Shown here: positions 1-50,545 of the stretch, piece by piece | Layout of the letters: the number at the start of each line of letters is the position of its first letter | Position numbering within the stretch: position 1 is the first letter of the stretch | Assembly (NCBI RefSeq): GCF_016907695.1 | Contig: NZ_JAFBCK010000001.1 | Location: 6,560,001-6,624,000, forward strand | Reading direction: 5' to 3' | Length of the DNA: 64,000 nucleotides | Origin: Actinokineospora baliensis | Lineage (GTDB): Bacteria; Actinomycetota; Actinomycetes; Mycobacteriales; Pseudonocardiaceae | Translations under genes and position numbers: made by a program | Notes under the pieces: model-generated | What the model saw: the letters and a program-made list of their open reading frames with translations, nothing else | Databases searched by the model: none | What the model was told of the DNA's origin: nothing

Positions 1-571
1 TGGCCAGGTCGTGCACGAGGCGGTGGACAGCGGCCAGGACGTCTTCGGCGGCTCCGGGGTCCAGGGCCGAGGTGGGTTCGTCGAGCACGAGGATCCGGGG
101 GTGCGCGGTCAGGGCCGCGCCGATCGCCACCCGTTGCTGCTGCCCGCCGGACAGCGACGCCAGCGGCCGGTCCCGGAGGTCGGCCAGCCCCAGCAGGTCG
201 ACCGTCTCCTCCACGCGCTTGCGCATGGTGGCGGCGGGGATCGCGAGTGACTCCATCGAGTAGGCGAGTTCCTCTTCAACGGTGTCGGTGACGAAACCCG
301 CGACGGGATCTTGGCCGACCATCCCGACCACGTCCGCCAACTCCCGCGGCGGGTTGGTGGCGGTGTCGCGCCCGTCAACGAGGACGCGGCCGGTGAGCGC
401 GCCACCGGTGAAGTGCGGAACGAGTCCGTTGACGGCACGCAGAAGGGTGGACTTGCCCGCGCCGGTACCGCCGACGATCAGGCACAGCTCCCCTTCTGGG
501 ATCTCCAGGTCGACATCGACCAGCACGGGCACATCCGCGTAGGCGATCGTCACGTGCTCGAATCGGATCAC
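1..571 (-). CDS. ECF transporter ATP-binding protein (C-terminus beyond window)
   Basis: ATPase that powers an energy-coupling-factor vitamin importer on the inner face of the membrane. About 190 residues are visible. They include a Walker A motif GGTGAGKST (residues 34-42), a Q-loop VGQDP (85-89), the ABC signature LSGGQQQR (140-147) and Walker B LVLDEP (161-166). The protein is cut by the left edge just after Walker B. The GTG start at 571 overlaps the stop of the T-component gene (GTGA) and has AGGAGG 7 bases upstream. It is the last visible gene of the riboswitch-led B12 operon. Whether it continues as a double ATPase, or is followed by an S-component gene, cannot be seen. Confidence 0.93.
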   Translation of the reverse strand, partial: MIRFEHVTIAYADVPVLVDVDLEIPEGELCLIVGGTGAGKSTLLRAVNGLVPHFTGGALTGRVLVDGRDTATNPPRELADVVGMVGQDPVAGFVTDTVEEELAYSMESLAIPAATMRKRVEETVDLLGLADLRDRPLASLSGGQQQRVAIGAALTAHPRILVLDEPTSALDPGAAEDVLAAVHRLVHDLA

Positions 572-1629
572 GAGCGCGCCTCCTGGCGTGTGAGAAGCAC
601 CGGCAGCAGGGCGGCCAAGACACCGATCACGGGCACCAGCGGTACCTCCGGCGCGGACAGTGGAACGGTGGACGGGATCAGCGAGAGATCCCCGAACGCC
701 TCCGCGAGCACTGCTGTCGCACCAGCGATCGCGCCGGAGGCAGCGATGAGAACTGACGGCACCGTCCACCGGTCGGGCCTATAGCGGGTGCGGCTCAGGC
801 GCCGGGAACCCAGCACCAATCCGGCACCAGCGAGCACGACTCCCACTAGGAGAACCGGTACACCTACGAACGCGGGAGCCTGCGCATCTAAGAGGCCGTA
901 AGCGCCTACGCAGAGACCTATAAGGCCGCCGAGTACGAGCACGGCTGTTGTCACGCGAGTCCGTTTCGGTAGGCCCGCGGTGCGGCCGTATCCGCGGGAG
1001 TCCATCGCAGCAGCGAGGTGCAGTGACCGGTCCAGCGCGTCTTCCAACACCGGCACGAGCAGAGTCCGCACCGCGTTGCGCCCACGGACAGCGTCACCGC
1101 GCAACGCTCTAGCCCGCCGCACCGCCCTAGCCGATACCGCGAGCTGCGGCGCCACGGTCAAAGCGACCACCACTGCCGCACTGACCTCATAGAGAGCGGC
1201 CGGGACCGACTTGAGCAGGCGGCGCGGATCAGCAAGCGCGTTGGCAGCGCCCACGCAGCAGAGAAGGGTGGCCAGCTGAAGTCCTTGGTAGAGGGCATAG
1301 AGGAGCCCCTCAGCGGTGACGGCGCCGCCCAGCCGGATCCCCTTGGCCCAATCCGGCAAGGGCACCTCGGGCAGCGTGAACAGCACTGTGGGTCCTGTGA
1401 TGCCTCCGACGAGGATGGAGAACACGAGGCGGATGGCGATGACGAGGAGCCCGAACTTCAGGAACATGCCGTACGCCGAAGACCAAGGCGCGTTCGACCG
1501 GCAGTGCACGGCGACAAACCCGGCGACCGCGAGGATCACCGCCAACAGGACCGGATTGGTGGTGCGGCTGGCCGCAACCGCCAATCCGAGCGCCCACAAC
1601 CACCAGGCGCCGGAGTGGGGTGGGCGCAC
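568..1629 (-). CDS. ECF transporter T-component (EcfT/CbiQ family)
   Basis: Membrane scaffold of an ECF importer, coupling the ATPases to a substrate-binding S-component. It is 353 aa, longer than the usual ~250-270 aa, with about seven hydrophobic segments. The coupling motif AMDSRGYG (about residues 208-215) is the conserved A-R-G helix that contacts the ATPase. The GTG start at 1629 shares one base with the stop of the preceding secreted-protein gene (TAGTG), and its own stop overlaps the ATPase start. Tight linkage to the cobalamin riboswitch and transcobalamin-like proteins implies a corrinoid substrate. That substrate is inferred from context, not from this sequence. Confidence 0.9.
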   Translation of the reverse strand: MRPPHSGAWWLWALGLAVAASRTTNPVLLAVILAVAGFVAVHCRSNAPWSSAYGMFLKFGLLVIAIRLVFSILVGGITGPTVLFTLPEVPLPDWAKGIRLGGAVTAEGLLYALYQGLQLATLLCCVGAANALADPRRLLKSVPAALYEVSAAVVVALTVAPQLAVSARAVRRARALRGDAVRGRNAVRTLLVPVLEDALDRSLHLAAAMDSRGYGRTAGLPKRTRVTTAVLVLGGLIGLCVGAYGLLDAQAPAFVGVPVLLVGVVLAGAGLVLGSRRLSRTRYRPDRWTVPSVLIAASGAIAGATAVLAEAFGDLSLIPSTVPLSAPEVPLVPVIGVLAALLPVLLTRQEARS

Positions 1630-2423
1630 TACTCGTCCTTGGCCCTGCGACGAGCGGTGACAGCGGCGATACCGGCGAGCAGAACAACAACAGCGCCTAC
1701 GACGATCAGGGTCATAGAACCACCACCTGCCTCCTTCTGAGCCGCGGCAGGCTCAGGTTGCGGCGGCGATGGCGTCGTAGTGGACTCATGTGCCGAACTC
1801 GTCGGCGCAACACCCGCTGTCGTAGTAGTTGGCTGCGCGGTCGTCGTTGGGACAAGCGAAGCCGCCGTAGTGGCTGTGGTCGGCGCAAGCGTTGTCGTGC
1901 GAGGCGGTGCCGCTGGTGGAGCGACAGTCGGCACAGGTGCGGGCTGCGGCGGAACTACCGGCGTGTTCGGCGCGGGTTTGGCAGGCGGCGCGACACCCGG
2001 CGCCTTGCCCGCACCGTAGGACCACCCTTCGACCGTGCCTGAGGCTGGATCGCGGTTGGCCGCACCGAAAGAACTGTAGTTCCACGAGCCACCACGGTCG
2101 GCGTGCCAGTAAGACCAGTAGGCGGTCGCCGGAGGCGTGTTGACACAGGCATCGATGTCCGGCCCCGGCCGGTTGTCGATACGGCAGACGAACCCGGGCT
2201 GTCGCGTCGGGAAGGTGTAGCCGAAACCCGCTTGGGCCAACGCGGTGAGCCCGCTGTTGGGGTCGCCGGGCGCGCAGCGGGTCTGAACGCCGCCACCCAG
2301 GGAACCGAAGTCGACGACCACGGTCACCCCGGTGCTCTCACACGCCGCCGCGTTCGCGGTCGGGGCACCGACCACGAGCGCGGCGGCCGCTAAGAGGCCC
2401 GTGAGGAGGAGCCGAACGATCAC
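1629..2423 (-). CDS. Membrane-anchored secreted protein with transcobalamin-C-like (DUF4430-like) domain
   Basis: Predicted extracytoplasmic protein of 264 aa. It has a signal peptide (about 1-26, ending TANAA), a globular domain (about 27-145) with TVVVDF near its start, GFVCRI, YWSYWH and GTVEGWSYG, a Pro/Thr-rich stalk (about 150-225), a membrane helix near the C-terminus and a positive tail ARRRAKDE. The domain is paralogous to the next gene upstream and resembles the beta domain of intrinsic factor/transcobalamin; this is a pattern match by eye. I prefer the GTG at 2423, which overlaps the upstream stop (GTGA) and leaves a compact signal peptide, over an ATG at 2462 that has its purine tract immediately against it. 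It has no LAXTG signal. Inferred role: B12 handover from the wall to the ECF importer. Confidence 0.82.
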   Translation of the reverse strand: MIVRLLLTGLLAAAALVVGAPTANAAACESTGVTVVVDFGSLGGGVQTRCAPGDPNSGLTALAQAGFGYTFPTRQPGFVCRIDNRPGPDIDACVNTPPATAYWSYWHADRGGSWNYSSFGAANRDPASGTVEGWSYGAGKAPGVAPPAKPAPNTPVVPPQPAPVPTVAPPAAPPRTTTLAPTTATTAASLVPTTTAQPTTTTAGVAPTSSAHESTTTPSPPQPEPAAAQKEAGGGSMTLIVVGAVVVLLAGIAAVTARRRAKDE

Positions 2424-2866
2424 GGTGCCTGCGTGGGTGCAGTGCCCGCGCCGAATGCCCATCCCTCCACGGTTCCGGGCGCGGGGTTGTAGCTACCCGC
2501 GCCGCTGCTGCTGTAAGACCACGTCCCACCCGGAGTCCCGTGCCAGTAAGACCAGTACGCCGAGACCGGCGCGCCGTTGCACGGGTTGGGCAGGGTGTTG
2601 ATACGGCAGATGAAGCCCGGCTGCCGGGGGACGAACGCGTAGCTGAAGCCCGCGCCGGTGAGCGCGGTGAGCCCCGACGTCGGGTCCCCGAGCGCGCAGG
2701 CGGTCTGGACGGAGCCGCCGAGCGCGGTGAAGTCGACCACGACGGTGACGCCCGAGGTACCGGAGCAGGCGGCGGCCTGGGCCGGGGAAGCTCCCCCGGC
2801 CAGGATGGCGGCAGCGGCGAGCCCGACAGCAGAGGCGGCGGCGGTACGACGAATAGCGGTCTTCAT
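2420..2866 (-). CDS. Small secreted transcobalamin-C-like (DUF4430-like) protein
   Basis: Secreted protein of 148 aa with a signal peptide (about 1-32, ending PAQAA) and one DUF4430-like domain. The landmarks match its downstream paralog in order: VTVVVDF, SGLTAL, GFICRI, YWSYWH, TWSYSS and GTVEGW. It stops exactly where the paralog continues into its Pro/Thr stalk, so it is a soluble version without an anchor. The ATG at 2866 has GGGGAG 5 bases upstream. It lies 10 bases after the alpha-barrel gene and overlaps the following gene. It is probably the soluble half of a two-domain corrinoid-binding pair, by analogy with the alpha and beta domains of transcobalamin. Confidence 0.82.
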   Translation of the reverse strand: MKTAIRRTAAASAVGLAAAAILAGGASPAQAAACSGTSGVTVVVDFTALGGSVQTACALGDPTSGLTALTGAGFSYAFVPRQPGFICRINTLPNPCNGAPVSAYWSYWHGTPGGTWSYSSSGAGSYNPAPGTVEGWAFGAGTAPTQAP

Positions 2867-2876
2867 GTTCTCCCCT

Positions 2877-4100
2877 TTAGCGCACGGACGGACGGCGGCG
2901 AGCGAGCACGACGAGCGCGCTACCGCTCAACAGCAACAGAACGCCGAGCCACGTAACAGAAGGACGGTAGGTGCCGGTCGCGGCGAGCGCGGGCGAGTTG
3001 CCACCCTGCGGAACCGGGTTGGTGCCGTTCCCGCCGGGGTTGACCACCGGGTCGATCGTGCTCGACGTCGTCGTGGTGGTGGTCGGGGTGGTGCAGTCCA
3101 CAGTGGGCAGGGCGTTGCTCGCGCCGACCGCGCTCACCTTGGCGTAGCTGATCCCCAGGATGCCGGGGATGGCCTGGCTGGTGGCGCGAACCGCGTTCTC
3201 GCCCTGGCCCGCCGCGTAGAAGATGGCGCCCCGCACGGCTTCCGCGGCGGCGCAGCCCTGCTGGAGCCCGGTCAGGAACGTGACGGCCTTGTCGGCCTCC
3301 GCGGTCTTGGCGCCCACGCGCAGGGCCTGCGCGGCCAACCCGGTGGAGTTGGCGTTGTCCACCGAGCCGGGCAGGTTCGCCTTGAACCCGCCCGCGGCGG
3401 ACTGCTTGCCCACCAGCCAGGTCACGCCCGCGTTCGCCGCGTCGGTGCTGCCCGCCGCGGCCAGCGCCTGCACCGCCATCGCCGTGGCATCCACATCGGA
3501 CACGCAGGCCTCGTCGAAGTCGATCGGGAACCCGCCGTCCTGGCAGGCCGTGCCCGCGAGGAACTCGACCGCCTTGGCCGGCGCGCCGCCCGCGCGGTGC
3601 GTCGCGAGGATGCCGAGCGCCTGGCTGAAGGCGTTCGACTGGTCCGGCTGGGCGGAAGCGTCGGTGAACCGGCCCGACGGCGCCTGCAGCTCGCCGAGCT
3701 CGGTGATCAGGTCGACCTCGCCGAAGGACTTCGGGTCGAGCCCGCGGGACTCGGCGACCAGCGCCAACTTCGCCAACGGGCCCGCGTACGACTCGGCGGC
3801 ACCGTCCCCCGCGTACTCCAGGACGTTGTCCGGTGTGGCCAGGAAGGCCGTCGCCTTGGCCGAGGCGTCGGTGGCGACACCGGCCGCGTCGAGGGCGAAC
3901 ACGACATCGGCGGTGAGACCGAAGTCGGGGAAGGTCGGGACGCTCTCGACGTGTTCACCGTTGATGAGCTGGCGGGCTAACCACCCGGCGGCGGTGTCAT
4001 CGGCCGTGGCGCCCGCCTGCGCGGCGGCGCCAACCGGGCTCGTGGCGAGCGCGACGGTGATGACACTGGCCAAGACTGCTGCTCTGGGGCCAAGGCCCAT
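2877..4100 (-). CDS. Wall-anchored alpha-barrel protein (prenyltransferase/squalene-oxidase-like repeats), likely cobalamin binding
   Basis: Secreted 407-aa protein. It has a signal peptide (about 1-28), then helical repeats of the prenyltransferase/squalene oxidase type (about 30-315; recurring patterns such as DATAMAVQAL and NSTGLAAQAL), a Thr-rich linker (about 325-345) and a C-terminal sorting signal LAATG (372-376) followed by a hydrophobic helix and RRRPSVR. LAXTG is the class E sortase motif, so the protein is probably linked to peptidoglycan. Intrinsic factor and transcobalamin use the same alpha/alpha-barrel fold for their alpha domain. I chose the ATG at 4100, with AGAGG 9 bases upstream. 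An in-frame extension to 4331 would run through the riboswitch. First gene of the operon. Confidence 0.85.
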   Translation of the reverse strand: MGLGPRAAVLASVITVALATSPVGAAAQAGATADDTAAGWLARQLINGEHVESVPTFPDFGLTADVVFALDAAGVATDASAKATAFLATPDNVLEYAGDGAAESYAGPLAKLALVAESRGLDPKSFGEVDLITELGELQAPSGRFTDASAQPDQSNAFSQALGILATHRAGGAPAKAVEFLAGTACQDGGFPIDFDEACVSDVDATAMAVQALAAAGSTDAANAGVTWLVGKQSAAGGFKANLPGSVDNANSTGLAAQALRVGAKTAEADKAVTFLTGLQQGCAAAEAVRGAIFYAAGQGENAVRATSQAIPGILGISYAKVSAVGASNALPTVDCTTPTTTTTTSSTIDPVVNPGGNGTNPVPQGGNSPALAATGTYRPSVTWLGVLLLLSGSALVVLARRRPSVR

Positions 4101-4108
4101 GTCCAACG

Positions 4109-4124
4109 CCTCTCGCACGAGAGG
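4109..4124 (-). promoter_or_regulatory. Hairpin overlapping the ribosome binding site (putative riboswitch expression platform)
   Basis: CCTCTCGTGCGAGAGG forms a 6-7 bp stem with a very short loop. Its 3' arm contains the only Shine-Dalgarno candidate (AGAGG) for the ATG at 4100. This is what a translational-control platform downstream of the cobalamin aptamer would look like. A second, longer inverted repeat (CCCGGGT...ACCCGGG, about 4129-4168) lies between aptamer and hairpin and could be the alternative pairing partner. Confidence 0.55.
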
Positions 4125-4198
4125 GCGCGGCGGATCCCGGGTACCGCGCGCGGCGGAGCACCCGGGCCCCGACCCGCGGTCCTCGACGGTTCGGAGCA

Positions 4199-4300
4199 CG
4201 CCGCGCCCCACAGGCGTTCGGGCTCGCCGCCACAAGGGCGGCCTACCGTTGCGGGCCAGCGCCGGCGTTCGACCGGACTTCCCCTGCGTGGGCGCGGCTG
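4199..4300 (-). promoter_or_regulatory. Cobalamin (B12) riboswitch
   Basis: On the minus strand the leader contains the B12-box landmarks in order: AGGGGAAGTCCGGT, GAACGCCGGCGCTG, GCCCGCAACGGTA, a variable hairpin GCCGCCCTTGTGGCGGC, then GAGCCCGAACGCCTG. The flanking strands CCGCGCCCAC...CAGG and CCTG...GGGCGCGG can close P1. It lies 98 bases upstream of the alpha-barrel gene and explains the operon's link to corrinoids: high cobalamin should repress uptake. It is a known riboswitch class; the match is by eye. Confidence 0.93.
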
Positions 4301-4561
4301 CTGTATCGCATCGGATCATGCCCAACGGCAACCAAACACCGCAAGATCAGCGCCGGGTAGCCGACATCACCCACCCGGACGGCCCAACGGCCGGATTTCC
4401 GGGCCCGGCCAACAAAAGCACCACAACCGGTGCCGGGGGCACGCCTGGCGGTCGACGACCGTTGGACAAATCGTGATCACACCGAGCCCGGCGCCTGCCC
4501 CGAACAGCCCAACCGGATCGGGGCCACTCGCAGCAGCCCGACCCGCCGCGCCCGCCCCGGT
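4301..4561. other. Intergenic region upstream of the B12 riboswitch
   Basis: No gene is supported here. It should hold the promoter of the B12 operon; a loose TTGCCG-N18-GATACA arrangement sits on the minus strand just before the aptamer, but it is weak. I see no clear terminator for the phosphatase gene whose stop is at 4562. Confidence 0.4.
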
Positions 4562-6109
4562 TCAGTCGCGGCGCAGGACCAGCAGGGCGATGTCGTCGTC
4601 CTTGTTCCGCCCGTAGGTGCCCAGCAGCCGCTCGCAGGTGGACTCCGGGTCCTCGTCCGCCCGCATCGAGGCGCGCAGGTGCTCCATGTCGGCGTCCAGG
4701 GCGGCGGTGCGGCGCTCGATCAGACCGTCGGTCATCAGCACGATCGTCGTCCCGGCTGGGAAATCGATCTCGGTCGCGGGCGGCCGCGGCGTCCGGACGC
4801 CGAGCAGTGCCCCCGGCAGACGGAGGTAGCGGGCACCGTCGGCGTCGATGACCAGCGGCGGGATGTGACCCGCGTTCGCGATAGAGGCTTTACCCGCCAG
4901 AGGATCCAGCAGCATCACGCACAACGTGGTCAGCCCCTCCGGGTGGAACCGGCGGAGCATGGCGTTGAGCCGATCAACGATAAGAGCAGGCGGGTGGCCC
5001 TCTATGGCGTACGCGCGCAGGGCGTGCCGCACCTCGCCCATGATGGTGGCGGCTTCGATCGAATGACCGGTCACATCGCCAATGGCCACCAGAATCTGGT
5101 CGCCCAACTCCGTCACTTCATAGAAGTCGCCACCGACTTGAGCGACCGTAGAGGCGGGGACGTAGCGCGCGGCCATGCGTATCCCACTGCGATGGGGTAG
5201 CCGGCTCGGCAACAGGCTTCGCTGCAGGGCCAGAGCGATGTCGTGTTCGTCCGTGAACGCCCGCAGCCCTTCAGCGGCGACCGCGGTCGTGAGTCCGATC
5301 TGGACCAGGAGATCGCGGTCCTCCTGCGCGACAACGGCCGACGCGGGCAACGCCACGCAGGTGACGGGGTGGTCAGAGCGGATGCGCGCCAAGACGACAC
5401 AGGTACGGCCATCGGGCAGCGTGCGCAGCGCGGACGTCGTGTCCTCCGGGAGGGCCTCATCGGCCAAGTCCCGCAGCGGGTGCGTGGTCGACAGCACCAC
5501 CGGCTCGGCCGTGCCCTCGGTGCTGCCCCACATCTCCCCGCCGTCGCGCAGTCGCACCAGGACTGTCGCCGCGCAGTCGAGGACGGCGGCGGCTCCCTGT
5601 GCGGCGGCGGTGACGAGAGCGGGGAAGGTGCGCGCGGCGTTGATCCCCAGGTTCACCGCGGTGAGCCTGCTCAGCCGGGCGGCCAACCGCTCCGCCGCGG
5701 CCCTGGCCCGGTAGTAGCGCAGCGCCGCCTTCACCGTGGCCAGCAACTCCCCCGGGTCGACCGGCTCGCTCAGGTACGCATCCGCGCCCCTGGTCAGGCC
5801 CGCGGCCCGGTCGCTCGCCTCGATCATGCTCGCCGAGACGTGCACCACCGGCAGCGCCGCGGTCGCCGGGTCGCTCTTGATCGCCTCGCACACCTCGAAC
5901 CCGCTCATGTCCGGCAGGTTCACGTCCAGGATCACCAGGTCGACCGGGGTGGACCGGACCGAGGCCAACGCGCCAGCCCCGGTGTCGGCCTCGATGACCT
6001 CGTGGCCGTTGCGGCGCAGCCAGCCACCGGTGATGTAGCGGCTGGCCTCGGTGTCGTCGACGACGAGGATGCGGGCCGGTGCGTCCTGGTCGTAGCCCGC
6101 CCCGGTCAC
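4562..6109 (-). CDS. Response regulator PP2C (SpoIIE-family) phosphatase with GAF-like middle domain
   Basis: Soluble 515-aa protein. The receiver domain (about 12-130) has ILVVDD and LVILDVNLPDMSG with the phospho-acceptor Asp. A GAF-like segment follows (about 145-285), then a SpoIIE/PP2C Ser/Thr phosphatase (about 300-515) with GGDFYEV, GDVTGHS, NAGHIPP and DDDIALLV metal-binding motifs. The usual Lys of receivers is Glu here (YLSEPVDP). It likely dephosphorylates a STAS antagonist when its receiver is phosphorylated, probably by the hybrid kinase encoded just upstream. The GTG start at 6109 overlaps that kinase's stop (GTGA). Last gene of the six-gene stressosome operon. Confidence 0.9.
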   Translation of the reverse strand: MTGAGYDQDAPARILVVDDTEASRYITGGWLRRNGHEVIEADTGAGALASVRSTPVDLVILDVNLPDMSGFEVCEAIKSDPATAALPVVHVSASMIEASDRAAGLTRGADAYLSEPVDPGELLATVKAALRYYRARAAAERLAARLSRLTAVNLGINAARTFPALVTAAAQGAAAVLDCAATVLVRLRDGGEMWGSTEGTAEPVVLSTTHPLRDLADEALPEDTTSALRTLPDGRTCVVLARIRSDHPVTCVALPASAVVAQEDRDLLVQIGLTTAVAAEGLRAFTDEHDIALALQRSLLPSRLPHRSGIRMAARYVPASTVAQVGGDFYEVTELGDQILVAIGDVTGHSIEAATIMGEVRHALRAYAIEGHPPALIVDRLNAMLRRFHPEGLTTLCVMLLDPLAGKASIANAGHIPPLVIDADGARYLRLPGALLGVRTPRPPATEIDFPAGTTIVLMTDGLIERRTAALDADMEHLRASMRADEDPESTCERLLGTYGRNKDDDIALLVLRRD

Positions 6110-7815
6110 CGCTCGTGGTCCGCGGCCATGGCCCTACGGATGCCGTCGCGCACCGACTCGGTGCTCAGCTGGGACGTGCGCAGCACCACGAGGCCGCTCT
6201 GGTCCCGGTACTCGGCCGACTCCAGGGCCAGCACGGGGGTGGCGGCCAGCTTCGGTTCCCGGCGCAGCCCGGCGAGGCAGTCCTCGGCGTGCGGGGCGGC
6301 CAGGTCGAGCACCAGCAGGTCCGGCGGCTCGGCGGTCGCCATCAGGACCGCGCCCGCCCCGTCGGCGGTCTGCCGCACGGAACCGACCAGCGGGTCCATC
6401 GCGGTGCTCAGCCGGGCGCGCAGCGTGTCGTCGGCGGTGACCAGGAGCACCGACCGGGGTCGGGCGGGGGCCTCGACCGCGTCCACAGGGAGTCGCACGG
6501 TGACAAGCGTGCCCTGACCAGGCGTGCTCCGCAGATCGAGTGACCCGCCGAGCACCTCGGCCACGCCGCGCGCGTACGGCAGGCCGAGCCCGGTGCCGAC
6601 CGCGCGGGCCTGCAGCGGGTTGGGCACCTGGTGGAACTCTTCGAAGACCTTGTCCAGGTGGTCGGCGGGGATGCCGATGCCGGTGTCGGCGACGGTGAAG
6701 GTCCACGTGTCGTCGTCGACGGCGGTGGTGACCCTGACCTCCCCGCGCTCGGTGAACTTGAGCCCGTTGGAGACGAGGTTGCGCAGGACGTGCATGAGCA
6801 GCATGTCGTCGGTGCGCAGTGGCGGCGCGGCGGGCGGCTCGTCGACCACCAACGCCACCTCCCCCGCCCGGGTGGCCGCGAGGAACCCGTCGCGGAGTTG
6901 GGCGAACAGCAGCCTGAGGTCGACGTCGCCGATGCGCGGCTCCAACCGGCCCGACTCGGCTTTCGCCACGTCCAGCAGGTCGTTGACCAGGGTGACCAAG
7001 CCGCCGCCAGAGGTGCTGATCAGCTCCAACTGCCTGCGCTGGTCGTCGGTGAGGGGATCGGCGCCAGGACCGAGGAGTAGCCGGGCCAGTCCGACGATCG
7101 AGTTGACCGGGGTGCGCACTTCATGGCTGACGTTGGACCAGAACCGGTTCTTGGCTTCGCTGGCCCTCTTGAGCTCGATGCTCTTCTGGTCCAGTTCCGC
7201 ATAGAGGGCCACAACACCGCGGTTGGTCTCGTCCAACTCCTCGGTCAACTCGCCATAGAGGGCCAGCACGCCGCGGTTGGTCTCCTCGAGCTCAGCGTTC
7301 AAGCGCAGCAGTTCTTCTTGCTTGCGTTCCAAGCTGTCGAGCGTAAGGAGCAGTTCCTCGTTCTGGGCTCGGAGTTCATCGGCAGCGTTGCCCGGTTGGA
7401 GGCTGCCCAGTTCTTCCCGCAGCCGAGCAGCGGACGCCTTGTCCGGGAACGCAGTGCTGGCCGACAACGCCTTACGCACAAGAACAGCGACGCCGCCCCG
7501 ATGTTCCTCGACCCGCACCTCGTCGAGCAACCGCTGCGCGGTCGACCACCCGGGCTCGGAAACCGGCGCGGTGGACAGTGCGGTTCGCAGCCGCACCGCG
7601 AGCGAGAGCGGCGGTCCTTCGTCGAGTTCGAACGTGACGGTGAGCGGGGCACGCCCGATGAGCAGCAACCGCCCGAGGTCACTCAGGGCCGTGGCCACGC
7701 GGATCTGGTCTTGCGCTTCCATGCCTATAGCGCGTGCGACCTCGCGTCCGCGCTGCCGCAGCAAGAACACGCCTTGCTCACCGGAAAGCGTTAGGGCCAG
7801 CAGTTCGGCGTTCAC
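6106..7815 (-). CDS. Hybrid sensor histidine kinase with RsbT-like N-terminal segment
   Basis: Soluble 569-aa kinase. Residues about 1-125 look like a degenerate RsbT/RsbW ATPase fold (VATALSDLGRLLL aligns with the N-box helix of RsbT but lacks Asn). A Glu/Leu-rich coiled coil follows (about 135-235), then HisKA with FWSNVSHEVRTPVNS, HATPase_c with LRNLVSNGLKF and TGIGIP, and a C-terminal receiver-like domain (about 455-565) with VLDLAAP but weak conservation elsewhere. No membrane segment is seen. The GTG start at 7815 overlaps the upstream stop. Its position between a stressosome and a receiver-phosphatase suggests it senses the state of the Rsb complex and phosphorylates the phosphatase next door; this is inference. 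Confidence 0.88.
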   Translation of the reverse strand: MNAELLALTLSGEQGVFLLRQRGREVARAIGMEAQDQIRVATALSDLGRLLLIGRAPLTVTFELDEGPPLSLAVRLRTALSTAPVSEPGWSTAQRLLDEVRVEEHRGGVAVLVRKALSASTAFPDKASAARLREELGSLQPGNAADELRAQNEELLLTLDSLERKQEELLRLNAELEETNRGVLALYGELTEELDETNRGVVALYAELDQKSIELKRASEAKNRFWSNVSHEVRTPVNSIVGLARLLLGPGADPLTDDQRRQLELISTSGGGLVTLVNDLLDVAKAESGRLEPRIGDVDLRLLFAQLRDGFLAATRAGEVALVVDEPPAAPPLRTDDMLLMHVLRNLVSNGLKFTERGEVRVTTAVDDDTWTFTVADTGIGIPADHLDKVFEEFHQVPNPLQARAVGTGLGLPYARGVAEVLGGSLDLRSTPGQGTLVTVRLPVDAVEAPARPRSVLLVTADDTLRARLSTAMDPLVGSVRQTADGAGAVLMATAEPPDLLVLDLAAPHAEDCLAGLRREPKLAATPVLALESAEYRDQSGLVVLRTSQLSTESVRDGIRRAMAADHER

Positions 7816-8843
7816 CGGCCACCCGCCCTGGCCACCACCACACTCGCGTCATCGCGACGCACCCCCGCCTCGCGCAAGAGGTCCAGGGCCATCACCAACG
7901 GCGACGCGCGCCAACGGTCGAGCGGGTCCGCCGTCCAGCGCTCGTTGAGCCCGTCCGAGTGCAGCACGACGACAGCGTCCTCGGGCAGCTCGTAGTCGAA
8001 CCGGCGGATGGAACGGGCCTGGTATCCCGCGATGCCGGGCAGGGACACCATCCCGCGCTTGCGTTCGGCCACAACGGTGCCCACGATGTTGCCCACCCCC
8101 GCGAACCGCACGAGAGCCGCCGCCGGGTCCAGCTCGGCGACGGCGACCGCGCCACCCCTGGTGCCGTTCATCCCGACGTGCAACCGGCGAACCATGTCCT
8201 CCGGGGTCGTCAGGTCACCGTCGAGGAACGTTCGCACGGCCGCCTGCGACGCCGAGGCCGCCAGCGGGCCGTGGCCGGAACCGTCGCACAGCATCAGGTG
8301 CAGCTTGTCGCCGTGCTCGCGGATGGCGTAGGCGTCGCCGCAGATCTCCTCACCGTCGATCGGCCGGGTCACCCCGGTCGCGATCTCCTCGACCGGGGCG
8401 GGGCGGTCACGCCGTGGTCGCGGGTCGAAGCGGGCGGTGAGGATGGTTCCCCGACCGACCGACGAGCGGACCGCGCAGTGGTCCGACAGGCGGGTGACCG
8501 CGCCGAGCCCGATCCCCAGCGTGCCCGTGGTGGAGTGCCCGTCGCGGAAGGCCAGCTCGGGGTCGACCATGCCCGGCCCCCGGTCGACCGCGGCGACCTC
8601 GACCTGGGCGGTGTCGCCGGTGCGCAGCGCCCTCAGCAGCAGCACACCCTGGTCGGCGTGCTTGGCCAGGTTGGTCGCCAGCTCGGTCACCACCAGCGCC
8701 ACCTCGGCGGCCCTGTCCGGCGGGAACGCGAGCCGCTCGGCCAGGCCGGTCACCGCGCGCCGCGCCGACCCGACCGCGCTGGTGTCCTCGACCGGCAGCC
8801 AGGCGACGTCCTCGGCGGTGGGCAGCGGATCCGCCCCGGTCAC
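7812..8843 (-). CDS. RsbT-like ATPase fused to SpoIIE/PP2C phosphatase
   Basis: 343-aa fusion. The N-terminal HATPase domain (about 20-135) has an N-box VVTELATNLAKHA, a G1 motif DRGPGM and a G2 motif LGIGLGAV. The C-terminal PP2C domain (about 150-343) has GDAYAIR, CDGSGHGPLA, GVGNIVG and VLHSDGL. Such proteins are found in rsbRST clusters and combine a switch kinase with an RsbX-like phosphatase that resets RsbR/RsbS. The GTG at 8843 was chosen because it overlaps the rsbT stop (GTGA) and because the conserved domain begins shortly after it. A much longer open frame upstream is only a shadow of rsbT and rsbS. Confidence 0.9.
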   Translation of the reverse strand: MTGADPLPTAEDVAWLPVEDTSAVGSARRAVTGLAERLAFPPDRAAEVALVVTELATNLAKHADQGVLLLRALRTGDTAQVEVAAVDRGPGMVDPELAFRDGHSTTGTLGIGLGAVTRLSDHCAVRSSVGRGTILTARFDPRPRRDRPAPVEEIATGVTRPIDGEEICGDAYAIREHGDKLHLMLCDGSGHGPLAASASQAAVRTFLDGDLTTPEDMVRRLHVGMNGTRGGAVAVAELDPAAALVRFAGVGNIVGTVVAERKRGMVSLPGIAGYQARSIRRFDYELPEDAVVVLHSDGLNERWTADPLDRWRASPLVMALDLLREAGVRRDDASVVVARAGGR

Positions 8844-9244
8844 CGCGACCACTTGACCACGGTCACCGTCGTGCCGCGACCCACCTCGCTGTCGAGCTCG
8901 AACTCGTCGACGAGCCTGCGCGCCCCGCTCAGCCCGAGCCCCATGCCCCGGCCGCTGGTCCAGCCGTCGGTCAGCGCGAGGGTCAGGTCGGGGATGCCGG
9001 GGCCCTCGTCCTGGAAGCTGGCCCGCACGCCCTGGCGCCTGCCCTCGCCGAGCAGCTCCACCACCGCCGACCCGCCACCGCCGTAGGTCAGCGTGTTGCG
9101 GGCCAGCTCGCTGGTCGCGGTGACCAGCTTGGTCTGGTCCACCAGCGACAACCTGGCCCGCTGCGCGAAGGACCGCACGACCTGGCGCACCCGGACCACG
9201 TCCTCGTCGGCGGCGATCGGGATGTCCTCGCGCGCCGCGGTCAC
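8840..9244 (-). CDS. rsbT: RsbT, stressosome switch kinase
   Basis: 134-aa Ser/Thr kinase of the GHKL fold that phosphorylates RsbR and RsbS and, once released, activates a downstream PP2C phosphatase. The N-box SELARNTLTYGG (45-56) keeps both Glu46 and Asn50. G1 is DEGPGIP and G2 is GRGMGLGLSGAR. The length matches the family (about 133 aa). The GTG start at 9244 overlaps the rsbS stop. Third gene of the operon. Confidence 0.95.
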   Translation of the reverse strand: MTAAREDIPIAADEDVVRVRQVVRSFAQRARLSLVDQTKLVTATSELARNTLTYGGGGSAVVELLGEGRRQGVRASFQDEGPGIPDLTLALTDGWTSGRGMGLGLSGARRLVDEFELDSEVGRGTTVTVVKWSR

Positions 9245-9618
9245 CTCGGCGCCCGCTCGCCCAGTTCGGCGAGGATCGCCAGGCCCTTCTCCAGGTCGAG
9301 GGCGGTGCGCACCTCACCGAGGGTGAGGCCCAGCTCCACCAGGGTGATGGCCACCGCGGGCCGCATGCCCACGACCACGGTGTGCGCGTCGAACAGCCGC
9401 GAGGTCGAGGCGATGGTGGCGAACATCCGGCCGATGAACGAGTCGACGATGTCCACGGCGGAGATGTCGAGGATGACGCCGTGCGCACCGGTCGCGGTGA
9501 TCTTCTCGGCCAGGTCCTCCTGCAGCGCGAGCACGTCGCGGTCCTGCAGGTCGACCTGGATGGAGGCGAGCAGGACGTCGCCGATCTTGAGGATGGGGAT
9601 GCGCTCCACCGCGCTCAC
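9241..9618 (-). CDS. rsbS: RsbS, stressosome STAS scaffold
   Basis: 125-aa single STAS-domain protein that forms the stressosome core with RsbR and holds RsbT inactive. It has ILKIGDVLLASIQ near the N-terminus and DISAVDIVDSFIGRMF, where Ser60 corresponds to the RsbT-phosphorylated Ser59 of Bacillus RsbS. The GTG at 9618 (reading VSAVERIPIL) gives the correct family length and overlaps the rsbR stop by four bases. The longer open frame in this frame overlaps rsbR and is not supported. Confidence 0.95.
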   Translation of the reverse strand: MSAVERIPILKIGDVLLASIQVDLQDRDVLALQEDLAEKITATGAHGVILDISAVDIVDSFIGRMFATIASTSRLFDAHTVVVGMRPAVAITLVELGLTLGEVRTALDLEKGLAILAELGERAPR

Positions 9619-49020: not shown

Positions 49021-50121
49021 TCAGGCTTGACGCTGGTAGAAGGGCAGCTTGACGACCTCGACCGGCGCGCCGGTGCCGCGGATGTCCACGGTGAGCGCGG
49101 TACCCGGCTCGCTGACCGCGACCGGCACGTAGGCCATCGCGATCGGGTGGCCGAGCGTCGGCGAGAGCGCGCCGCTGGTGACCGTACCGACCTGGGCGCC
49201 GTCCCCGTCGAGCACGGCGTACCCGTGTCGGGGGGCGCGCTTGCCGGACCCGATCAGCCCCACCAGCACCTTGGTCTCGACGTCGGCGTCGCGGCGGCGC
49301 TCCAGCGCCTCCTTGCCGACGAACCCGCCGGGCTTGTCGAACTTCACGACCCGGCCGAGACCGGCGTCGAACGGGGTGAACGAGGCGCTGAGCTCGTTGC
49401 CGTAGAGCGGCATCCCGGCCTCCAGCCGCAGCGTGTCGCGGCAGGCGAGCCCGGCGGGCAGCAGGCCGTGCTCCTGGCCCACCTCGGTGAGCAGCCGCCA
49501 CACCTCGGGGGCCTTGGCACCGTCCACATAGACCTCGAAGCCGTCCTCGCCGGTGTAGCCGGTGCGGGCGAGCAGGATGTCGATGCCCGCGATGGCCGAC
49601 GGGACGCTGGCGTAGTAGGCGAGCGCGTCGAGGTCGGCGTCGGTCACCGAGCCGATGATCGCCGTCGAGGTGGGGCCCTGGACGGCGATCAGCGCCAGCG
49701 AGGCGGAGCGGTCGTCGACCTCGACGGCGAACCCGTCGGCGCGCTCGCGCAGCGCGGCGGCCACGGTCGCGGCGTTGGAGGCGTTGGCGACGACCATGTA
49801 CTTGTCGGCGGCCAGCCGGTAGACGACCAGGTCGTCGAGGACACCGCCCTCGTCGTCGCAGATCATCGTGTAGCGGGCCTTGCCCGGCTTCACCGCCGAG
49901 AGCTTGCCGACCAGGGCGAAGTCCAGCGCCTGGGCCGCCTCGGGGCCGGTCAGCTCGATCTCGCCCATGTGGCTGAGGTCGAACAGGCCCGACGCGGTGC
50001 GGACCGCCTTGTGCTCAGCCAGCTCGCTGCCGTAGCGCAGGGGCATCGACCAGCCCGCGAAGTCGGTGAACGAGGCACTCAGGGCCTCATGCACCGCGTG
50101 CAGCGGGGAGGGTGTGCTCAT
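49021..50121 (-). CDS. gcvT: Glycine cleavage system aminomethyltransferase (T protein)
   Basis: 366-aa T protein transferring the aminomethyl carbon to tetrahydrofolate. It has FAGWSMPLRYG near the N-terminus, LFDLSHMGEIELTG, ARTGYTGEDGFEVYV and the catalytic Asp region GLACRDTLRLEAGMPLYG. The ATG at 50121 has AAGGAG 11 bases upstream. The in-frame extension to 50379 runs through the riboswitch and is not coding. First gene of the operon. Confidence 0.97.
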   Translation of the reverse strand: MSTPSPLHAVHEALSASFTDFAGWSMPLRYGSELAEHKAVRTASGLFDLSHMGEIELTGPEAAQALDFALVGKLSAVKPGKARYTMICDDEGGVLDDLVVYRLAADKYMVVANASNAATVAAALRERADGFAVEVDDRSASLALIAVQGPTSTAIIGSVTDADLDALAYYASVPSAIAGIDILLARTGYTGEDGFEVYVDGAKAPEVWRLLTEVGQEHGLLPAGLACRDTLRLEAGMPLYGNELSASFTPFDAGLGRVVKFDKPGGFVGKEALERRRDADVETKVLVGLIGSGKRAPRHGYAVLDGDGAQVGTVTSGALSPTLGHPIAMAYVPVAVSEPGTALTVDIRGTGAPVEVVKLPFYQRQA

Positions 50122-50327
50122 GGAAGTCGGTTCTCCTTCGGCGCGCCGGGAACAGTGCTGTCCGCAGCGTGGCACGCCGGGCGCGCGTGGTGCAGCGCGA
50201 CCGGTCGAGCTGTGGATGAGTGTGATGGTTGTGGACAACCCGTGGGCTGTTCGCTGTATTGGGTGCGGGGGACGAGGGTCATGGGAGCTCCTGGGCAGCG
50301 CGCCGGGTGGACGATCCCGGCGCTGGA

Positions 50328-50507
50328 ACTCCCCCTCTGTCATGGCACCTGAGAGCTTCGCCGCGAACGCGGCTTGCACCGTGGGTGAGGCGCCGAGATC
50401 GCGCCTGCTTTCCAGAGTGGCCTGGTGGGAACGGTAGCTTTACCTGAGAGATTGACGGGGAGTTTGCTCCTTCGGTGCCTCGACCAAGGTCGAGGGCTCT
50501 CCCGGTC
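50328..50507 (-). promoter_or_regulatory. Tandem glycine riboswitch
   Basis: On the minus strand aptamer 1 has GGGAGAGCC, GCACCGAAGGAGCAAA and ATCTCTCAGGT; the linker and aptamer 2 follow with CTCTGGAAAGC, GGTGCAAGCC and GCTCTCAGGTGCCATG-ACAGAGG. These are the conserved boxes of both aptamers of the gcvT-type glycine riboswitch. It lies about 205 bases before gcvT. Known members usually turn glycine catabolism on. Confidence 0.93.
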
Positions 50508-50545
50508 CCACTCGTGCGGCCCGATATGTGGTTGTGGTCGCGAGA

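Follow-up and report, generated by a model that had tools for sequence, protein, structure and literature searches.

A cobalamin riboswitch-led operon of Actinokineospora baliensis encoding separate transcobalamin-like alpha and beta proteins and an ECF transporter, a likely corrinoid scavenging system

The DNA analysed here (the window) is a stretch of 64,000 nucleotides of the soil bacterium Actinokineospora baliensis (contig NZ_JAFBCK010000001.1, positions 6,560,001 to 6,624,000), which lies within one contig of 7.68 Mb. On its minus strand, from position 4323 downwards, a riboswitch leader is followed by the genes of an alpha protein (alpha407), two beta proteins (beta148 and beta277), the EcfT component of an energy-coupling factor (ECF) transporter and the start of a fused ECF ATPase; the same strand to the left of the window (locus L001) carries the remainder of the ATPase, an S-component of 262 amino acids (aa) and a second alpha protein of 337 aa (alpha337). 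In this study, we describe a real, conserved and functionally coherent operon, and argue that it is likely to be a riboswitch-controlled corrinoid scavenging system, in which alpha and beta proteins clamp the ligand in trans and a dedicated ECF transporter imports it. The features are:

4192-4323, minus strand: cobalamin riboswitch leader (Rfam-matched core 4213-4283; extent from the model R1 described below)
2877-4100, minus strand: alpha407, 407 aa, predicted exported alpha-toroid protein resembling the intrinsic factor alpha domain, with a putative LAATG wall-sorting tail
2420-2866, minus strand: beta protein 1 (beta148), 148 aa, predicted to be exported and soluble, with a modelled transcobalamin beta-domain fold
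1629-2462, minus strand: beta protein 2 (beta277), a domain of the beta-1 type, a Pro/Thr-rich linker and a C-terminal membrane anchor
568-1629, minus strand: EcfT, CbiQ family (PF02361, E 2.4e-9)
1-571, minus strand: 5' part of the fused two-domain ECF ATPase (EcfAA'; PF00005), running on leftwards to L001:5970
L001:5973-5185, outside the window: S-component (EcfS), 262 aa (PF12822, below cut-off)
L001:5188-4175, outside the window: second alpha protein (alpha337), 337 aa, soluble

GTGA or ATGA overlaps, read by eye, were found at four of the six gene junctions, and the arrangement thus resembles one translationally coupled operon. The junction of EcfT and EcfAA' is a GTGA overlap, and the beta277 gene possibly starts at GTG 2423, overlapping the stop of beta148 (also read by eye). 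Searched genome-wide, the beta profile found the operon's two beta proteins only, and the alpha profile found two strong members, both the operon's own, plus weak matches to one further protein.

The leader matched the cobalamin riboswitch family RF00174 at window positions 4283-4213 (minus strand) with a score of 21.6 bits (E 0.0024 in a search of 701 bases, E 0.0063 in the whole genome). An earlier note on this DNA had placed a cobalamin riboswitch ahead of the operon, and the switch was found to recur in relatives and to co-vary. Among 15 relative loci scanned (L003-L017), 12 carried a switch above the gathering score 5' of the alpha gene (11 RF00174 and one AdoCbl-II), and L009, L015 and L016 carried none. 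Over 14 switches, that of the window included, 32 columns were invariant. For covariation, 43 switches from 40 sources (E<=1e-15) were aligned to model R1, an alignment which leans towards the model; standard pairs occupied 96.1% of the paired cells, and 138 cells were doubly changed, where shuffles gave 46.9 and slid versions no more than 24. A conserved core (14 switches) and co-varying helices (43 switches) are present in switches at the alpha-leader position. Model R1 was built with the window switch included, so the 102.8 bits that it gives this switch are not independent, and some of the genomes behind the R1 loci recur among loci L052-L131.

Scanning species genomes with the beta alignment yielded 360 confirmed relatives, of which the best 80 were kept; unless stated otherwise, locus counts refer to these 80, a number of which sit on short contigs. 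Of 125 switch matches, 111 of at least 24 bits were tallied, the window's own match and 13 weaker ones being excluded. A switch stood no more than 700 nt upstream of an alpha or beta match on the same strand in 73 of the 80 loci, and 103 of the 111 tallied matches had this position. At six of the seven switchless loci the first alpha or beta match begins so close to the locus start (about 310 bases or less) that a switch may have been lost by truncation; L060, the seventh, is a genuine exception. Nine loci (L073, L074, L079, L080, L083, L087, L095, L100 and L106) have divergent switch pairs, each switch ahead of one of two alpha genes that point apart. On the minus strand beside a fusion gene (see below), L062, L066, L077, L085 and L086 each have an extra partial switch match of 44-55 bits facing away from that gene, with no alpha or beta match within 700 nt downstream.

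Six switches above gathering were found elsewhere in the A. baliensis genome, with neighbours matching NrdA, MetE, CobN, a cobaltochelatase followed by CobB, and two aldehyde dehydrogenases; a CobG match below cut-off lies divergent from the switch beside CobN. The six look like a normal B12 regulon, and the operon is probably under vitamin B12 control as well. At one of these places (L152, G000:C1:4608600-4620700), two cobalamin riboswitches precede aldehyde dehydrogenase genes, one of which matches methylmalonate-semialdehyde dehydrogenase and has an acyl-CoA dehydrogenase gene behind it. Branched-chain catabolism feeding methylmalonyl-CoA may be under B12 control there.

Alpha407 matched SQHop_cyclase_C of Pfam below the cut-off (E 2.6e-4) and, over residues 118-271, the animal family Cobalamin_bind (PF01122; E 0.0059, 16.1 bits). 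In an alignment (A6) of 67 alpha members, consisting of the window protein, its paralogue and relatives, 47 matched Prenyltrans, 42 SQHop_cyclase_C and five Cobalamin_bind (at E<=0.01). All 67 matched the NCBIfam model SCO2321_fam at E<=1e-5, alpha407 itself scoring 108 bits against a cut-off of 300. The alpha profiles matched squalene-hopene cyclases, prenyltransferases and complement domains in the PDB, down to E 2.9e-39; transcobalamin was not among the PDB matches listed (in the second search, the best 60 of 97), which excludes nothing. Profile similarity thus assigns the alpha proteins to the alpha/alpha-toroid superfamily. Residues kept among the 67 members are D204 (in 64), Q233 (in 67) and N251 (in 64). 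The secreted alpha-barrel protein with a LAATG signal that had been read from the window was borne out by these toroid matches, by a hydrophobic N-terminus and by a C-terminal end of LAATG, a hydrophobic stretch and RRR. Alpha337 also has a hydrophobic N-terminus, with neither a sorting motif nor a hydrophobic C-terminal stretch.

An AlphaFold2 model of the beta domain from 103 sequences reached a pLDDT of 92.2 (38 for the single-sequence prediction), and its best PDB matches were the beta domains of transcobalamin, intrinsic factor and haptocorrin. The predicted fold is therefore that of the transcobalamin/intrinsic factor beta domain (TC-like SLBB, DUF4430). As regards the beta-hairpin insert that follows the helix in this domain class, DSSP assigned a helix at 34-40 and then strands at 45-48 and 51-58. 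By sequence, the beta profile found only chance nanobody/Fab matches in the PDB. The domain of beta277 is 65% identical to beta148 (alignment A1). The NCBIfam SCO2322 family was matched by 97 of the 103 beta members at E<=0.001, and the window's beta proteins score below its cut-off. Both have a hydrophobic N-terminus; a C-terminal hydrophobic stretch is absent from beta148 and present in beta277 (Kyte-Doolittle (KD) 2.8, without a sorting motif), in agreement with the one soluble and one membrane-tethered beta protein proposed earlier.

The ECF T and ATPase genes recognised in the earlier note are upheld by the CbiQ match of EcfT and by the ABC ATPase match, the full fused gene having two ABC domains. 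That note had also advised looking left of the window for an S-component, and one is encoded there, so that the T, A, A' and S components stand together in the operon. Its sole Pfam match at E<=0.1 is PF12822 (27.0 bits, E 5.1e-6), and column identity averages 72% over its alignment of 18 rows. The operon's S-component carries no clear non-corrinoid assignment, and the pump probably imports vitamin B12. A CobF gene lies about 3.2 kb past the last gene of the operon, with CobU and CobS just past it. The interval (L001:945-4041) encodes a regulator of the LysR type, a peptidase of the M64 type and a protein whose HTH match is weak.

By title, the 80 loci belong nearly all to Actinomycetota (Actinokineospora, Saccharothrix, Lentzea, Streptomyces, Kitasatospora, Micromonospora, Catellatospora, Nitriliruptoraceae and others). 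Alpha was found in 76, beta in 80, EcfT in 67, EcfAA in 65, EcfS in 60 and all five in 58. Of 296 genomes drawn evenly from the phylum, 50 had a match to the beta profile, in some cases short and weak, and alpha407 was matched in 29 of 120 genomes of the same family, two of them through its C-terminal part only. The order of switch, alpha and beta is kept, with switches above gathering, in the distant relatives L158, L178, L179 and L180, two of which are small genomes of 1.3-1.4 Mb. The exception to Actinomycetota, L111, is a contig titled as a Rhodobacteraceae metagenome-assembled genome with an actinobacterial-type beta domain, and is perhaps a binning error.

The tails of the alpha and beta proteins were surveyed over the 80 loci, where several matches may belong to one protein. 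A hydrophobic tail was found in 74 of the 117 alpha matches with a complete C-end (118 in total), 60 of the 74 having an L[AP]x[TS]G-like motif, and in 69 of the 125 beta matches with a complete C-end (129 in total), five of the 69 having such a motif. All four kinds, tailed and untailed alpha and beta, occur in 27 of the 80 loci. A wall-tied alpha with a membrane-tied beta is thus a recurrent pattern. At six loci (L062, L066, L077, L085, L086 and L112), titled Streptomyces, Kitasatospora and Dactylosporangium, beta-alpha-alpha lies in one open frame. The fusion of L085 (Streptomyces sp. CB02056) was read through; it has its own switch upstream and ends in LASTG, a hydrophobic stretch and RRR. 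Among the sequence data, these fusions are the best indication that alpha and beta work together.

Upon the operon, beta fold, alpha superfamily, anchor signals, switch and conservation, all of which were computed, we place a scheme in which the ligand, the joint clamping, the handover from wall to importer and the direction of regulation are what we infer. The exported alpha toroid and the beta-grasp domain would close in trans around B12, or a closely related corrinoid, clamping it between them. One alpha would be tied to the wall and one free, one beta free and one tied to the membrane. B12 trapped between the two halves at the wall or in the medium would then reach the membrane-tied beta, which, once loaded, would pass the corrinoid to the operon's EcfS/EcfT/EcfAA' for ATP-driven import. 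Plentiful intracellular B12 would cause the riboswitch to turn the operon down, closing the loop. Separately expressed alpha and beta parts of transcobalamin co-elute only when cyanocobalamin is present (PMC5599065), and the fragments of cut intrinsic factor still bind tightly together with cobalamin (PMC6257451). By analogy with these precedents, a split pair joined by its ligand is plausible. More tentatively, B12 might act as a molecular glue, the wall alpha and the membrane beta closing on one corrinoid and so moving it to the importer, and free alpha and beta forming a two-piece corrinophore; we regard this as possible and put it forward with some doubt. If the glue were real, the animal B12 carriers would be the one-chain version of a bacterial two-part design, and a secreted two-piece corrinophore would be the B12 counterpart of a haemophore.

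Several results weigh against the B12 scavenging interpretation. The 21.6 bits of the window switch are below the RF00174 gathering score of 31.5, and a whole-window Rfam scan at gathering did not list the switch in the alpha-gene leader. Folded alone, the leader is unexceptional (z -1.40, with 15 of 200 shuffles equally good). Alpha407 falls short of the PF01122 cut-off of 25 bits. The S-component is below the PF12822 cut-off of 30.7 bits, and its profile (A7) found no PDB chain at E<=10, so no link was found by sequence to CbrT, a B12 S-component that has been characterised. The host genome also has several genes of de novo B12 synthesis, contrary to the pattern of a 2007 survey, in which bacteria with transcobalamin-like domains usually lacked key B12 synthesis genes (PMC1796856). 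Neither beta protein matched any Pfam family at E<=1, PF14478 included, and PF14478 had no match in the genome at E<=0.001. Direct comparison of the beta and DUF4430 profiles was weak (probability 1.7-8.3), the score of 17.5 being reached by 4 of 200 column shuffles, and one intermediate beta sequence scanned with Pfam had no match at E<=1.

Scored like for like on the columns of the shuffles, the direct comparison gave 19.9, which none of 200 shuffles reached (maximum 19.2), and DUF4430 as query gave 22.2 (probability 8.3). The beta profile matched 20 intermediates, picked by that profile itself, with probability 99.6, and the intermediates matched DUF4430 at a like-for-like score of 31.6 against a shuffle maximum of 19.1. 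Profile homology of beta with DUF4430 is thus indicated through the intermediates only. The earlier description of beta as DUF4430-like therefore holds for the fold, and the direct PF14478 search did not bear it out. At L158 (G159:C203:1-7000) a canonical DUF4430 match and an SCO2322-like beta, some 1.3 kb from each other, both follow one cobalamin riboswitch, a possible evolutionary bridge between the two.

The superfamily of alpha raises the question of whether it is a terpene cyclase or prenyltransferase-type enzyme unrelated to corrinoid binding, as its best PDB profile matches, squalene-hopene cyclases and relatives, would suggest. We consider this very improbable. DxDD, the catalytic motif of class II terpene cyclases, occurs in one of the 67 alpha members, the window proteins have export-like N-termini and many alpha relatives wall-sorting tails, and the alpha genes stand behind a B12 switch. 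Alternatively, alpha and beta might each bind a ligand or the envelope alone, in sequence, never closing jointly on one ligand, which their separate chains and different anchors would allow. The single-frame beta-alpha-alpha of the six fusion loci argues against it, as do the presence of alpha in 76 of the 80 loci found through beta and the tight association of the cut intrinsic factor halves with cobalamin (PMC6257451), and we think it rather unlikely.

The substrate may also be other than complete B12, such as a corrinoid precursor or a different cobamide (cobinamide, cobyrate, pseudo-B12), or even cobalt, with the riboswitch only reporting a need for corrinoid. CbiQ/CbiO-type modules are classic cobalt importers, and the nearby CobF, CobU and CobS matches could help to finish a salvaged precursor. 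In Lactobacillus delbrueckii, ECF-CbrT accepts both cobalamin and cobinamide (PMC5997447). Against this reading, the S-component's Pfam match is to PF12822 and not to a CbiM family, and a transcobalamin-fold beta domain would seem unneeded for a bare metal ion. Overall, such a substrate appears unlikely to us.

Related known systems include the bacterial transcobalamin-like domains described by Burroughs et al. (2007, PMC1796856), with alpha-toroid fusions, anchors, paralogous pairs and CbiO/CbiQ neighbours; these authors predicted B12 scavenging and assigned the clade for the most part to low-GC Gram-positives and planctomycetes. The present proteins share with those SLBB proteins the export, the toroid fusions, the Gram-positive anchors, the paralogous pairs and the neighbours; they differ in being split, in being too divergent for PF14478 and in having here a host with B12 synthesis genes. 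The word riboswitch is absent from PMC1796856. The mammalian carriers transcobalamin, intrinsic factor and haptocorrin are one chain, alpha then beta, taken up by receptor endocytosis, whereas here separate chains with anchors, or beta-alpha-alpha in some relatives, are combined with an ECF pump. ECF-CbrT is likewise an ECF importer for B12, but shares one ECF module with other S-components (PMC5997447), whereas this operon encodes a dedicated module. For actinobacteria of the acI lineage, which lack a B12 pathway, an ECF module that follows cobalamin riboswitches has been proposed as a B12 transporter, and the available text names no intrinsic-factor-like proteins (PMC5301498). The NCBIfam models SCO2321 and SCO2322, matched by the alpha and beta relatives, are named by locus tag, without a function. 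Among the open-access literature matches listed, none was found to describe SCO2321/SCO2322 as B12 proteins or an intrinsic-factor-like system in split form; papers behind subscription, the original surveys of ECF transporters and of the B12 regulon among them, lie outside this scope. The available portions of PMC4350170, PMC2667541, PMC11107200, PMC12713380, PMC3766115 and PMC8123684 hold nothing for or against the system.

The earlier note had known of no characterised Gram-positive system of this layout; the general idea had already been predicted in 2007 for low-GC Gram-positives (PMC1796856), and the split form was not found described in the open-access matches listed. Its two halves as separate proteins stand, and its three extracellular proteins become four with the soluble second alpha left of the window. 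It had named as refuting the lack of any toroid or DUF4430 match and a clearly non-corrinoid S-component. A toroid profile and the beta fold were matched, and the S-component is not clearly non-corrinoid; overall, its interpretation is supported. We see in the system a novel actinobacterial form, with split halves, of the bacterial scavenging systems of transcobalamin type that were predicted in 2007. Two actinobacterial families named by locus tag only, and with them an ECF S-component of strong conservation, gain a testable function. The bacterial relatives of the mammalian B12 carriers now include a divergent form with separate halves, which makes the idea of two halves on one ligand genetically testable, and the operon suggests that likely B12 producers, not auxotrophs alone, compete for extracellular corrinoids.

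Adjoining the operon, the open reading frames (ORFs) at window 4562-9488 resemble, by eye, a signalling cluster of response-regulator/serine-phosphatase and histidine-kinase genes. Further into the window (50327-50514, minus strand) lies an ordinary tandem glycine riboswitch (61.7 and 45.8 bits), which precedes an ORF at 49021-50379 (minus strand) that by eye is like the glycine-cleavage T protein.

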